Source of the DNA: a virus
IMG/VR virus record: IMGVR_UViG_3300028883_000029
Coordinates: 1-30,167 of that record
DNA length: 30,167 bases
Reading direction: 5' to 3' (one strand)
Shown here in pieces: positions 7,291 through 25,636 of this stretch (position 1 is the first letter of the stretch; each line of letters starts with the position of its first letter). The notes beneath the pieces were generated by a model. That model did not search any database and was not told where the DNA came from. It saw only the letters and a program-made list of their open reading frames with translations. Both the position numbers and the translations under genes were made by a program.

Positions 7291-7800
7291 ATGGAACTCA
7301 ATGATTTATACCCTGCTGTTCTAACAATCGTTTTGATAGGATTAGTATTAGGAATTGGATTGTATGTAATGTCAGAAGTAAGAGAAGAAATTGCTACTGA
7401 ATATACTGGTTCAGATACTGCAGTTAATATAACTGCTACATCCCCAGCAAATACTACAACACTTACTGATTCAACATCAGATGATTACTATCTTAAAAGT
7501 ATAGACTCTGTAGTATATGAAAATGGTTCATCAACAACAATACCATCTTCTAATTATTCATTCACATCTACAGGAATAATTACTTGGGCAGATGAATTAG
7601 TTGCAGTTACTGATAACAGAGTAAATATTACTACAACATATATCTATGATGTAGCAAATAGTCCTGAAGAAGCAGTAAATGATTCTTTAGAAGGATTAGA
7701 TGATTTTGCTAGTTGGATTGCTGTAATAGTTGTAGTATTAGCAGCAGCAATAGTATTAGGTATTGTACTTCGTAGCTTTGGGCAAGGAAGAGCAGCATAA
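7291..7800 (+). CDS. 169-aa two-helix protein with inserted beta domain (paralogue 2)
   Basis: Both ends match the 94-aa neighbour: DLYPAVLTIVLIGLVLGIG near the start and FASWIAVIVVVLAAAIVLGI with LRSFGQG at the end. Between them about 85 residues of Thr/Ser-rich, sequon-bearing beta sequence are inserted (SNYSFTSTGIITW). That insert and the C-terminal helix are also similar to the end of the circle-spanning LamG protein. It may be a decorated minor capsid or envelope form of paralogue 1. It starts 8 bases after the upstream stop, in the same transcript. Confidence 0.85.
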   Translation: MELNDLYPAVLTIVLIGLVLGIGLYVMSEVREEIATEYTGSDTAVNITATSPANTTTLTDSTSDDYYLKSIDSVVYENGSSTTIPSSNYSFTSTGIITWADELVAVTDNRVNITTTYIYDVANSPEEAVNDSLEGLDDFASWIAVIVVVLAAAIVLGIVLRSFGQGRAA

Positions 7801-8347: not shown

Positions 8348-11116
8348 ATGGAATTCCCTAAAAAAATTGGTGTATTTTTAATTCTATTAATGATTGTTCC
8401 AGTTGTGGCTTCAATTGAAGTTGGAATTTCTGATGGTGAACCCCAAATTGGAATAGATCTTATTCCTGAAACTCCAACAAATTATTCTGCAGTTAATGTA
8501 AACAACTCAGAATATCTACAAGGATACACTCCAACAACTTTAAAGGATTGGATACAAGGATTATTTGATTCTATTTATTGCAAACTAACAGGTTGCACAA
8601 TGGAAGGAAATATTGATATGAACAAAAACAACATAACTAATGTTGCAGATTTATATTTTGATACAACTAATTGTGTAACAGATGGAATGAGTGAAGGTAG
8701 AGTTTGTTGGGACAATGATAAAAAAACATTAAGTATTGATTCTGGTTTAGGAACTGTTCTTCAAGTTGGGCAAGAACAAACAAGGGCAGTAAAAAATAAA
8801 GCAGGACAAACAATTTATGCAGGACAAATTACTTATATTTCTGGAAGTTCTGGAGAATTAGAAACAGTAATGTTAGCAGATTCAAGTAATGATACAAAGA
8901 TGCACAATTTAGCAATGGTTACACAACCAAGTTGTAATAATAATGCTTTATGTCAAGTAACAACTGTTGGATTAGTTCATGATATTGATACAAGCATGTG
9001 GATAGAAGGTGACCATTTATATCTTTCAGCAGATGGTTCTGGAAATGCAACAACTACTCAACCAAACTTCCCAAATTATAATATTCATTTGGGTGTTGTA
9101 ACAAGAAGTCATGCAAATACTGGTATGGTTGCTTTTTATCCAGAAATAGATTGGGGAGATGGAACTACAATTCATTCTTTAGGAATTTTAACAAATTTAA
9201 CTGTCAATGGTTGGATTAATGGAAAATTCAACTGGACATCTGGAGATGATTGGAATAGTTTTGATGGTTCAACATTATTATTTAATGATTCAAAACTTGC
9301 AACAACTTTCTACAATGCAACACAAGCAAGTGCAATTAGAGGAACAATAGATGGGGGAACTCTTGAAGATACTCAACACCCAGATGGAGATTATGATGGA
9401 GTTACTTTTAATTTTTCAGAAGAAGCAGGTGCAGTTGGTTTAGATTTAAGAGTTAATTTTACAAGTGTTGATGGTTTTAACAAAGGATATATCAGATATA
9501 AAACAAGTTCTCTTTCAGGAGATTATCCAGAAATTCAATTATGGAATTATGATGAAAGTGAATGGGAAGGTGGCTATGGTTATTTGTCTGAAACAGAGAA
9601 TTTCTTACAATATACAAATGATGTTTTAGATAGTTCAGAACATCTACAAGGGGGGATTATTCAAATGAGATTATATAAAGAAGGAAATGGAAATACAAAC
9701 AATCATTACTATGTTGATATGTTAGCGGTTGTTGATGGGTATGCAACACCAAGTGGTAATGTAGATTTAACTCCTTATTGGAGATATGATGATAATGATG
9801 AAAGTAGAAACTTTTTAACAGATGGGAATGTGACAGCAGACACTTATTTTGGAGATGGTTCTGAATTAATAGGAAATATGTCTTTTGATAAAACAAATAT
9901 TGCCTATACAAATAAATCAAATATTTTTACAAAAGAACAAGTTTTTAATGATAATTTTACAGGAAATTGGAGTGGATTGCCTTTTAGTTGGGTTTCTATA
10001 ATTCAAAAAGATATGTATGGAGCTATTAAAATGCCTGTAATAGAAGGACATTCAAGTTTAGGTGCTACAAGAACTTCTGTAGGATTAAGAGATGGAATTT
10101 ATGTTTTTGCTACAACAGGAATAAATCCTTCAATTATTTTAGCAAAAGATGATTTATTAGATTCAGCAGAAATAAGATATGATTTAACTTCAAGCCAATT
10201 AAATTTTACTTTAGCAGATAAATACAATTTTGATGATAGTATGAGTATAAATGGAAATTTAACTTTAGATAATGATGGATTGTTTATTGGAAGTTCTACT
10301 AGAATTTATAATGATGGAACAGATACAATTATCAATACAACTTCTGGAAGTTTATTTATTTATAATGATTCAGGTTGGGGAAATATTGAATATGGAAGTG
10401 CAGTAGAACACACTTATATAACACAAAAGACAAATAAAGAAGCATATGAATTAGTTGAATATGCAGAAGAAAATGGTGGAAATGATGGTAATTATTCAGC
10501 TTGGGAAGAATGTTATTCTACAAAAAATATAAAAGATTATTCAAGACCAGAGATTGAATATTATGAAAAAGAAGTATGTGAAATAGATATTATTATTGGA
10601 GGAGAACATATAAAAGAAAATTGTGAAAATAAGATTTTTGAAAATATAACTTATCCATATACAAAAGTTTCAGAAGGAATAAATGTTGGTTGTAAAAGTG
10701 TAATGATTCAAAAAGCATACGAATATTCTGAAAGAAATATAAAACATTTAGAAAATATAACTCAATTTGAAAATTCTGTTTTAGCAGAACATTACATAAC
10801 AAATACAACAAAAGAACCAGAAACATTAAATAAATTAGAAATTTTTTATGATGCTTTATCTACAAAAACATATTCACAAATGAAAGATATGATATTAACT
10901 TTAGATGGAAAGTTAAGTGATAATATTTTGTTTGATTATGAAAAGTCAGATTATGGAAGTTATAATTTAGAAGCTATTGGACATACAAATAGAGCAATGA
11001 ATGTTTTAATGTTATGGAAGATTTCAAAATTAGAAGATAGACAACAACAACAATTAGATTGTTGGGATTTATCAACTCAATCAGAAATAGTAAATTGTAT
11101 GAAGAATATAGATTAA
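8348..11116 (+). CDS. 922-aa secreted fibre-like / receptor-binding protein
   Basis: An N-terminal signal sequence (residues 5-22) is followed by a tail-fibre-type motif (EGNIDMNKNNITNV, 85-99) and a module at about 145-265 (VKNKAGQTIYAGQITYISG, LGVVTRSHANTGMV, with DTSMWIEGDHLYLS) typical of tailed-phage fibre and neck proteins. Next come beta-rich repeats with LTVNGWINGKFNW, DGNVTADTYFGDG and MSINGNLTLDNDGLF phrases, and a C-terminal helical part with QQQQL (about 890-910), as found in trimerising fibre tips. It probably binds host receptors. The signal peptide on a fibre is unusual for tailed phages and fits a membrane-budding particle. An adhesin is the alternative. Confidence 0.88.
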   Translation: MEFPKKIGVFLILLMIVPVVASIEVGISDGEPQIGIDLIPETPTNYSAVNVNNSEYLQGYTPTTLKDWIQGLFDSIYCKLTGCTMEGNIDMNKNNITNVADLYFDTTNCVTDGMSEGRVCWDNDKKTLSIDSGLGTVLQVGQEQTRAVKNKAGQTIYAGQITYISGSSGELETVMLADSSNDTKMHNLAMVTQPSCNNNALCQVTTVGLVHDIDTSMWIEGDHLYLSADGSGNATTTQPNFPNYNIHLGVVTRSHANTGMVAFYPEIDWGDGTTIHSLGILTNLTVNGWINGKFNWTSGDDWNSFDGSTLLFNDSKLATTFYNATQASAIRGTIDGGTLEDTQHPDGDYDGVTFNFSEEAGAVGLDLRVNFTSVDGFNKGYIRYKTSSLSGDYPEIQLWNYDESEWEGGYGYLSETENFLQYTNDVLDSSEHLQGGIIQMRLYKEGNGNTNNHYYVDMLAVVDGYATPSGNVDLTPYWRYDDNDESRNFLTDGNVTADTYFGDGSELIGNMSFDKTNIAYTNKSNIFTKEQVFNDNFTGNWSGLPFSWVSIIQKDMYGAIKMPVIEGHSSLGATRTSVGLRDGIYVFATTGINPSIILAKDDLLDSAEIRYDLTSSQLNFTLADKYNFDDSMSINGNLTLDNDGLFIGSSTRIYNDGTDTIINTTSGSLFIYNDSGWGNIEYGSAVEHTYITQKTNKEAYELVEYAEENGGNDGNYSAWEECYSTKNIKDYSRPEIEYYEKEVCEIDIIIGGEHIKENCENKIFENITYPYTKVSEGINVGCKSVMIQKAYEYSERNIKHLENITQFENSVLAEHYITNTTKEPETLNKLEIFYDALSTKTYSQMKDMILTLDGKLSDNILFDYEKSDYGSYNLEAIGHTNRAMNVLMLWKISKLEDRQQQQLDCWDLSTQSEIVNCMKNID

Positions 11117-11117
11117 A

Positions 11118-11243
11118 ATGGAATTAAAATCTTGGCAAATACAAATGATAATTCAAATGAAGAATCATGGATATAACATTTATGAAATAGAAGAAAAAAC
11201 AGGTGTTCCTTTAAAGGAAATAAAACAAATACTTAAACTTTAA
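11118..11243 (+). CDS. 41-aa helix-turn-helix microprotein
   Basis: The start is one base after the previous stop. GYNIYEIEEKTGVPLKEIKQIL reads as a homeodomain-like HTH when taken in two parts: GYNIYEIEEKTG (helix 2, turn) and PLKEIKQIL (recognition helix). Only the HTH unit is present, so it likely acts as a dimer or with a partner. It is the last gene of the late arm and could regulate it or the adjacent replication block. Confidence 0.72.
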   Translation: MELKSWQIQMIIQMKNHGYNIYEIEEKTGVPLKEIKQILKL

Positions 11244-11252
11244 AAAGTTTAA
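11233..11252. repeat. Inverted repeat TTAAACTTT-AA-AAAGTTTAA
   Basis: Nine-base perfect arms with a 2-base centre span the stop of the HTH gene. It could be an operator or a transcript-end element. Confidence 0.6.
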
Positions 11253-11260
11253 ATCACTTT

Positions 11261-11456
11261 CAATTTAGGGTGATGCATTACTCTACCCATAATGGAGTTC
11301 CCACATCACCCCTATAACTTCATGTTCCCTTAATCACCATCGAGGGAAAGGTGTTTTCATACACCCTCTTTTGCCATCCAAGGATTGCCACTATTCTTTC
11401 TACTCTCATGGGTAGTGGTTGGGTTTAATACCCCGTAAAATCCTTGGGTGTTTTTT
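11261..11456 (+). ncRNA. Candidate structured RNA in GC-richer intergenic island
   Basis: This stretch is clearly richer in G+C than its surroundings and holds many perfect stems: GGGTGATG (11268-11275) with CATCACCC (11304-11311), enclosing a 5-bp hairpin 11281-11285/11293-11297; TTCCCT (11325-11330) with AGGGAA (11343-11348); GGTGT/ACACC (11350-11354/11361-11365); and a 12-bp stem 11375-11386/11439-11450 enclosing CCACTATTC/GGGTAGTGG (11388-11396/11410-11418, two or more G-U pairs) and GGGT/ACCC (11421-11424/11430-11433), which gives a three-way junction. Six Ts follow the last stem. I recognise no known RNA family. A complex terminator or a replication origin are alternatives. Confidence 0.6.
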
Positions 11457-11479
11457 GTTACTACAATAAAGTTTACAAG

Positions 11480-11512
11480 AAATTATATAAACTAATTATT
11501 CTTAAACATCTC
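11480..11512 (+). promoter_or_regulatory. TATA box for leaderless replication operon
   Basis: AATTATATAA (11481-11490) is about 27 bases ahead of the ATG at 11513, with no Shine-Dalgarno between them, the spacing of a leaderless archaeal transcript. Confidence 0.55.
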
Positions 11513-11713
11513 ATGGACGGATGGAAGTATTGGGAAGGCAAGAAGGTATTTATTATTTCTAAAAATAGTTCACACCCTTATACTGGGGAAGTTATTGAAG
11601 TTGATGATTCTAAAGAACCATTAATTTGGATTACTATTATTGATAAATATGGATCAAGAGTTCAATTAGTTCATTCTGAAATATTAACAATTAAGGAGGA
11701 TGCTAAAAGATGA
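11513..11713 (+). CDS. 66-aa small beta-barrel (SH3/Sm-like) protein
   Basis: The frame is open from 11444, but that upstream part lies in the structured RNA. The ATG at 11513 is placed correctly for the TATA box and gives MDGWKYWEGKKVFII. Alternating strands (KKVFIISKN, TGEVIEVDD, IWITIIDKYG, VQLVHSEILTI) suggest a five-stranded SH3- or Sm-like barrel. The stop overlaps the nuclease ATG (ATGA). It may be a nucleic-acid-binding accessory; function unproven. Confidence 0.78.
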   Translation: MDGWKYWEGKKVFIISKNSSHPYTGEVIEVDDSKEPLIWITIIDKYGSRVQLVHSEILTIKEDAKR

Positions 11714-15292: not shown

Positions 15293-15396
15293 ATAAATTA
15301 CAAAGTTTATCGAAGATATTCACTGGAAATAAAGGGGTACTTAAAAAAATCCAAAACGAAACATTTAAATACTTTAATATATTAATTAAAATATGA
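15289..15396 (+). CDS. Possible 35-aa ORF overlapping a promoter
   Basis: The frame has ATGA overlaps with both neighbours (MNKLQSLSKIFTGNKG onward), but its 3' third is the strong BRE/TATA motif of the next unit. It may be translated as part of the coupled chain, or it may be only promoter DNA that happens to be open. Confidence 0.3.
   Translation: MNKLQSLSKIFTGNKGVLKKIQNETFKYFNILIKI
15357..15392 (+). promoter_or_regulatory. Strong BRE/TATA promoter (CGAAACATTTAAATA)
   Basis: BRE-like CGAAAC precedes TATA TTTAAATA (15364-15371), about 26 bases before the ATG at 15393. The same 15-base motif occurs at 19899, and a close relative (GAAACATTTAAA) reads leftward at 25578-25567. Confidence 0.8.
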
Positions 15397-15665: not shown

Positions 15666-15819
15666 TTACTGCACAAATGAATTAGAAGATCACAATTCAA
15701 CAATGTGCGATAAATGCATAGGTTCATTTTCAAGGATAGCAAACAAAATGAAATTCAATAAAACAAATACTCATCCCTTAAGGGAAGATAAAGAATTAAA
15801 TGGAGGTAAGCACAAATGA
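15649..15819 (+). CDS. 56-aa zinc-ribbon protein
   Basis: CDYC (C5, C8) and CDKC (C20, C23) form a zinc ribbon, followed by a basic, polar tail. It starts inside the RHH gene in another frame, preceded by GGAGATGGGAG, and its TGA overlaps the next ATG. Likely a small nucleic-acid-binding factor. Confidence 0.78.
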   Translation: MKRKCDYCTNELEDHNSTMCDKCIGSFSRIANKMKFNKTNTHPLREDKELNGGKHK

Positions 15820-16151
15820 GTTACAACTATACAGAAGAACAAAAAAAACTTGAAGCATACAAACCAATAGAAGGTTCTCTATTTTGGAAACCTACAGCTG
15901 GTAAATACAAAGTTAAAGCTATGACAGAACTCGAAGAAGCTGAACCGTACGAAGATAAACCACAGGTTAAGATTGTTCTTAACATTAATGGTGAAGATAA
16001 GATTTGGACTTTCGGTCACGGAAAGACACCTGCTTCAGTATATGGACAATTTGTTAGAATGGCAACTGAAAACAATAATACCTTAATTGGTAAAGAGTTT
16101 ACAGTAGTTGTTATTAACGATGGAACAAAGAACAGTTATACATTAGTTTAA
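15816..16151 (+). CDS. 111-aa probable OB-fold ssDNA-binding protein
   Basis: The compact beta-rich sequence has FWKPTAGKYKVKAMTEL, PQVKIVLNINGEDKIWTFG, GKTPASVYGQFVRM and a final strand FTVVVIND. Aromatic-rich strands and a Lys/Thr pattern recall small viral ssDNA-binding proteins, but the match is by pattern only. Codons look more GC-rich and regular than in its neighbours (for example ACCGTACGAAG), suggesting strong expression. AAATGGAGGT upstream is a good Shine-Dalgarno, and a hairpin terminator follows. Confidence 0.8.
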   Translation: MSYNYTEEQKKLEAYKPIEGSLFWKPTAGKYKVKAMTELEEAEPYEDKPQVKIVLNINGEDKIWTFGHGKTPASVYGQFVRMATENNNTLIGKEFTVVVINDGTKNSYTLV

Positions 16152-16170
16152 ATTATTACACATACCACAT

Positions 16171-16210
16171 TCCAGGAAGTTTGATTTCCACCTTCTTCCT
16201 GGATTTATAT
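16171..16210 (+). terminator. Nine-bp hairpin after the ssDNA-binding-like gene
   Basis: TCCAGGAAG (16171-16179) pairs perfectly with CTTCCTGGA (16195-16203), followed by TTTATATT. The stem is unusually GC-rich for this region and sits directly after the stop, so it may end or stabilise the mRNA. Confidence 0.6.
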
Positions 16211-19880: not shown

Positions 19881-19937
19881 AAAAACGGACGTTTTTACCG
19901 AAACATTTAAATAGTTTAATATTATCATAATAATACA
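19881..19937 (+). promoter_or_regulatory. Palindrome plus strong BRE/TATA promoter
   Basis: AAAAACG-GA-CGTTTTT (19881-19896) abuts CCGAAACATTTAAATA (19898-19913); TATA lies about 29 bases before the ATG at 19938, consistent with a leaderless transcript. The palindrome could be an operator or a recombinase site, and its T-run could end the recombinase transcript. Confidence 0.75.
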
Positions 19938-25534: not shown

Positions 25535-25636
25535 CTTTTTTTATAAAGTAACTAGTTGTAACTTGTTTTTAAATGTTTCTTTTATATTTGTATACAAATA
25601 ACAACATTTATATACTTGTATACATTTATTATTTGC
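25535..25636. promoter_or_regulatory. Divergent promoter region with two TTGTATACA operators
   Basis: Leftward, GAAACATTTAAA (25578-25567 on the minus strand) serves the operon starting at 25534. Rightward, ACATTTATATAC (about 25604-25615) is roughly 28 bases before the ATG at 25637. TTTGTATACAAA (25587-25598) and TTGTATACA (25616-25624) flank the rightward TATA, as expected for a repressor controlling the late arm. Confidence 0.68.

Follow-up and report, generated by a model that had tools for sequence, protein, structure and literature searches.

What is the compact stretch at positions 11261-11456 of an otherwise AT-rich viral genome, and does it act as DNA or through an RNA copied from it? 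The window analysed here is the whole of an IMG/VR virus record (IMGVR_UViG_3300028883_000029; 30,167 nucleotides), and because it ends in an 81-base terminal direct repeat the genome is probably circular, with 30,086 bases. The host is probably an archaeon, an attribution drawn from promoter type only; scanning cellular genomes for the host gave no match, and the phage collection contained no close relatives of this virus. We know of few structured RNAs from archaeal viruses. The island lies where late and early genes meet, in a nearly undescribed group of viruses that recurrently places GC-rich hairpin arrays in non-coding early DNA, and it is this recurrence that makes the question of RNA versus replication origin testable.

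The genes on both sides of the island all run rightward (+). Upstream lie a late gene of 922 amino acids (8348-11116) and, starting one base past its stop at 11116, a 41-aa open reading frame (ORF; 11118-11243), the last gene of the late arm, which likely encodes a helix-turn-helix (HTH) protein according to weak PHROG HTH matches (best E 0.005). Downstream, the first early gene is a 66-aa ORF (11513-11713), followed by a 475-aa gene and then a 489-aa replication protein with a Walker-A-like motif, so that gene order bears out the earlier note in placing the island between the late arm and the replication operon. Neither the 66-aa and 475-aa ORFs nor the 489-aa replication protein had relatives among viruses or phages, and searches of Pfam, PHROG, and PDB gave no confident match for the proteins neighbouring the island. 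The clear promoters of the window carry GAAACATTTAAATA, with the start codon about 40 bases from the start of the motif, and appear to be of the archaeal BRE/TATA type with leaderless starts. Near-identical motifs, (ACC)GAAACATTTAAATAGT, occur at 15355-15374, 19897-19916, and 25563-25582 and are common to relatives, with a 19/19 match to the related fragment L003. Between the island and the 66-aa gene, a BRE-like purine-rich AAGAAA with a TATA-like TTATATAAA reads as a probable early promoter (11477-11491, +), its centre about 26 bases 5' of ATG 11513, which is a leaderless spacing.

The GC content of 11261-11456 is 0.423 compared with a genome mean of 0.280 (sd 0.042), and all 196-base segments of equal or higher GC in the 30-kb genome lie inside 11252-11465, making the island the GC maximum of the genome; the earlier note had seen it stand out by composition. 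The lowest 200-base folding energy genome-wide, on both strands, belongs to the segment starting at 11251. The region 11240-11460 has an MFE of −66.0 kcal/mol, with a z score of −5.0 as + strand RNA (0 of 200 dinucleotide shuffles were as good), −2.8 for the − strand, and −3.7 as DNA. Of 501 segments scanned across the genome (30 shuffles each), the 2 covering the island had the lowest z scores on the + strand (−5.7 and −4.6). The island is the best-folding non-coding segment of the genome, beyond dinucleotide-shuffled controls, and its folding is biased to the + strand, the direction of the flanking genes.

Reading the sequence directly recovered all 7 helices that had been described, including an 8-bp perfect stem closing an inner hairpin and a 12-bp stem closing 2 hairpins ahead of a T6 tract. 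Module A (11268-11311, +) consists of the 8-bp stem (11268-11275/11304-11311) and an inner 6-bp hairpin (11280-11285/11293-11298); a census of perfect GC-rich hairpins across the whole window (perfect stem of at least 7, G/C of at least 5, loop of at most 45) returned only 2, at 11268-11311 and 16171-16203. Module B (11325-11348, +) is a 7-bp hairpin (11325-11331/11342-11348), and module C (11350-11365, +) is a 5-bp hairpin pairing GGTGT with ACACC (11350-11354/11361-11365) across a loop of 6. Module D (11375-11450, +) is a three-way junction in which the 12-bp stem (11375-11386/11439-11450, one U.G) encloses a 10-bp hairpin with three G.U pairs and a 13-nt loop (11387-11396/11410-11419) and a second hairpin of 4 bp (11421-11424/11430-11433). 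The T6 tract (11451-11456, +) abuts this closing stem and is the first T run of at least 6 past the stop of the late genes. Modules A and D each exceed shuffles independently: A by itself (11262-11317) has a z of −4.7, while D (11370-11456) reaches −33.1 kcal/mol and z −5.3 on the + strand versus −22.4 kcal/mol and z −2.4 on the − strand. Module D contains 4 G.U pairs, and the opposite strand would have A.C mismatches in their place.

A hidden protein in the island was rejected, as the open reading frame list contains no ORF of at least 50 aa inside 11244-11443; a TTG-started ORF from 11444 continues in frame into the 11513 gene. A known RNA or tRNA was rejected as well, since Rfam searches at the curated gathering score found no match in the window or in its relatives (the best sub-threshold match of the island was HPnc0580, with 20.4 bits against 37 required) and ARAGORN found no tRNA/tmRNA structure in the window; the earlier note, likewise, had recognised no family. 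Searches of virus, phage, and plasmid sequences and of the genome itself yielded no homologues of the island DNA, and distant relatives of the virus (~50-57% protein identity) have no sequence in common with it.

These relatives were reached only via the ATPase, membrane proteins, and a 111-aa gene. G001 (28.6 kb) has structural genes syntenic with those of the window, G004 (41.7 kb) and G005 (26 kb) were recovered through the 111-aa gene, and fragments L002, L003, and L006 were recovered through the ATPase, L003 belonging to record G003. GC-rich hairpin islands also occur in the non-coding early-region DNA of four related viruses: G001 at L004:7675-7865 (L004:7675-8220 with the 111-116-aa gene; − strand z −5.6), G004 at L009:6904-7150 (L009:6559-7150 with the gene; whole-island z only −1.2 and −2.4), G005 at L010:6940-7095 (L010:6576-7095 with the gene; z about −3.4), and L003, with 3 hairpins (z −3.1) behind an analogous gene whose predicted 96-aa product we read as possibly an OB-fold. 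In z scans, no segment of the G001 stretch fell below its island on either strand, and none of the G005 stretch fell below its island on the − strand. The 111-116-aa gene, which is not assigned to a family, is always followed by one or more GC-rich hairpins in the window, L004, L009, and L010. The conserved copy in the window (15816-16151, +) has a 9-bp hairpin directly behind it (16171-16203, +), 11 bases 5' of ATG 16215, and the last hairpin ends ~10-12 bases 5' of the next ATG in the window, G005, and L003. The relatives' islands thus follow the 111-aa gene directly instead of separating late from early genes, and they show no consistent strand preference. No common sequence among the islands of different viruses was found above shuffles, and they are not alignable. 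An RNA model of module D retrieved only module D itself below E 0.7, with a best match in the relatives of E 0.78; it also matched L010:7015-7045 in the G005 island (E 1.7; a 9-bp stem with a 13-nt pyrimidine-rich loop), which we do not claim as a relative because hairpin-rich DNA favours such matches. The virus group repeatedly carries hairpin islands, while the window island between the late and early genes has a sequence found in none of the others.

G004 also contains a duplicated structured non-coding element (L009:6942-7001 and 7704-7763). Its flanks, AAGCAGGCGGTGATATGACAA and CCGACCTGCTCA(C/T)TTA, are identical between the copies at 21/21 and 15/16 positions, and the inner hairpins differ in sequence yet both pair, a pattern suggesting that structure is under selection in the virus group. 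A model of the element, R1, found no further copy in 200 kb, and homology between the element and the window island was not found.

The reading that we favour, with a probability of roughly 0.45, is that late transcripts carry the island as a structured + strand RNA domain at their 3' end, terminating at T6, and that this domain may be kept as a stable RNA. It is preferred because of the strand bias, the placement of T6 against the closing stem, and the position of the island. Late transcripts should enter the island, since the flanking genes are all + and no T run of at least 6 occurs from the late stop up to 11451. A polymerase coming out of the late genes and the 41-aa HTH gene would transcribe modules A to D and would stop at U6, directly against the junction closed by the 12-bp stem and 5' of the early promoter at ~11480. 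The fold could protect the 3' end and prevent late transcripts from running into the early operon, and the island RNA of ~190 nt may persist as a stable RNA.

The termination signal in archaea consists of U-tracts, with a hairpin not strictly required (PMC8716108). Measured by the criterion of at least 4 U at the transcript 3' end, the T6 at 11451-11456, as read from the DNA alone, stands where a U-tract terminator would. Like the aCPSF1-dependent archaeal terminators, its U6 is downstream of a stop codon and 5' of the next promoter; unlike them, it is preceded by 190 branched bases. Because archaeal terminators need only U-tracts, so elaborate a fold asks for more than termination, such as 3'-end protection or a stable RNA. 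Another gene junction in the window (after 7800) has bare T-rich runs and no GC-rich hairpins, so termination alone needs no such structure, which counts against the favoured reading.

In AT-rich archaea, an island of high GC content is accepted as a marker of structured RNA (PMC3432209), as the earlier note had said. The present island, GC-rich and foldable against an AT-rich background, resembles the archaeal non-coding RNAs found by GC screening (the approach of Klein et al. 2002), but it is viral, lacks homologues or an Rfam match, and is known from sequence alone. The earlier proposal of a structured non-coding RNA is supported in that the + strand fold is beyond chance and strand-biased, has no ORF or recognised family, and abuts T6 with its stem; a separate RNA, however, is not favoured over an mRNA 3' domain. 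Also counting against the 3' domain, the relatives' islands are elsewhere and have no consistent strand bias, and the motif at 11230-11249 would suit an independent RNA equally well.

Such an independent RNA would be a structured molecule of ~187 nt with its own promoter, acting in trans, perhaps together with a small protein from the adjacent gene. We consider this doubtful and no more likely than a 3'-terminal domain of late mRNA. The putative promoter is a weak PWM match at the right distance (11230-11249, +) to the virus-group promoter motif (ACCGAAACATTTAAATAGT), with a TATA-like TTTAAAAA at 11239-11246. Transcription from it would begin around 11269-11272, at the base of stem A, and this start and the terminal U6 fit the ends of the fold closely. 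The score of the match, 6.0, is not decisive, as it ranks 27th genome-wide, with 26 sites higher, many of them inside genes, and clear promoters score 18-25. The partner could be the 66-aa ORF, possibly a small beta-barrel (Sm/SH3-like) RNA-binding protein. This is a lead only: the fold is predicted, homologues were not found, and the AF2 model, with 5 strands and a pLDDT of 52, is too poor for structure search. A Pfam search with the 66-aa protein, including the LSM/Hfq profile for Sm/Lsm membership, gave no match. A similarly placed L003 protein matches the RimP-C (E 4.5e-5), Hfq (E 0.0035), and LSM (E 0.0064) profiles, all under the curated cut-offs. A wider claim, that modules A to D with their own promoter and U6 are a new kind of viral RNA (~187 nt) of AT-rich circular viruses, probably archaeal, with a virus-encoded RNA-binding protein, and that the relatives' islands are fast-evolving members of one functional class, seems improbable.

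It is likewise unlikely that the island is a DNA replication origin whose hairpins or cruciforms are bound by viral replication proteins. Its position past the late arm and ahead of the replication genes and its single-stranded DNA fold (z −3.7) agree with this role, and there is a precedent in the archaeal virus SNJ2, the origin of which is a hairpin DNA element adjoining rep (PMC13107129). Inverted repeats in relatives point the same way, one of 20 bp (perfect, spacer of 54 bases) close to where the late arm of G004 meets the helicase gene (L009:2729-2822) and a long imperfect one just behind the helicase-like gene of G003 (L003:5103-5240). Origins of the SNJ2, Rep-Arvir type combine a hairpin and an adjoining inverted repeat with a neighbouring Rep-Arvir gene. 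While the island, which has hairpins, resembles them as hairpin-forming non-coding DNA beside replication genes, it is larger, multi-hairpin, and strand-biased, and no Rep-Arvir gene was recognised (no dedicated model used). It is also without iterons and GC-rich rather than AT-rich, the inner hairpins of module D depend on G.U pairs, the composition skew at the island merely tracks gene direction, and no rolling-circle Rep was identified (without a dedicated search). The G004 repeat, possibly the origin of that virus, overlaps the 3' end of the primase-helicase gene (z −6.9) and adjoins three AGAACCATT repeats encoding the C-terminus of its product.

An operator array, in which inverted protein-binding sites control the early promoter and RNA structure is irrelevant, is very unlikely: the island is directly 5' of the probable early promoter and 3' of the small HTH gene, and repeats the words GGGTGAT/ATCACC and GGTGT/ACACC in inverted arrangement, but three-way branching and unequal stems do not fit, folding is strand-biased, and no sequence is common with the other islands above shuffles. 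Nothing was found that specifically supports a packaging RNA, an option raised earlier.

Other non-coding stretches of the relatives also draw attention. In G005, L010:7521-7680, just 5' of a small gene, has a strongly + strand-biased fold (z −6.9 versus −2.1). In G004, the late arm is followed directly by a near-consensus promoter (L009:1897-2280) that reads into ~350 bases without an obvious ORF, possibly giving a non-coding transcript at the end of the late arm.
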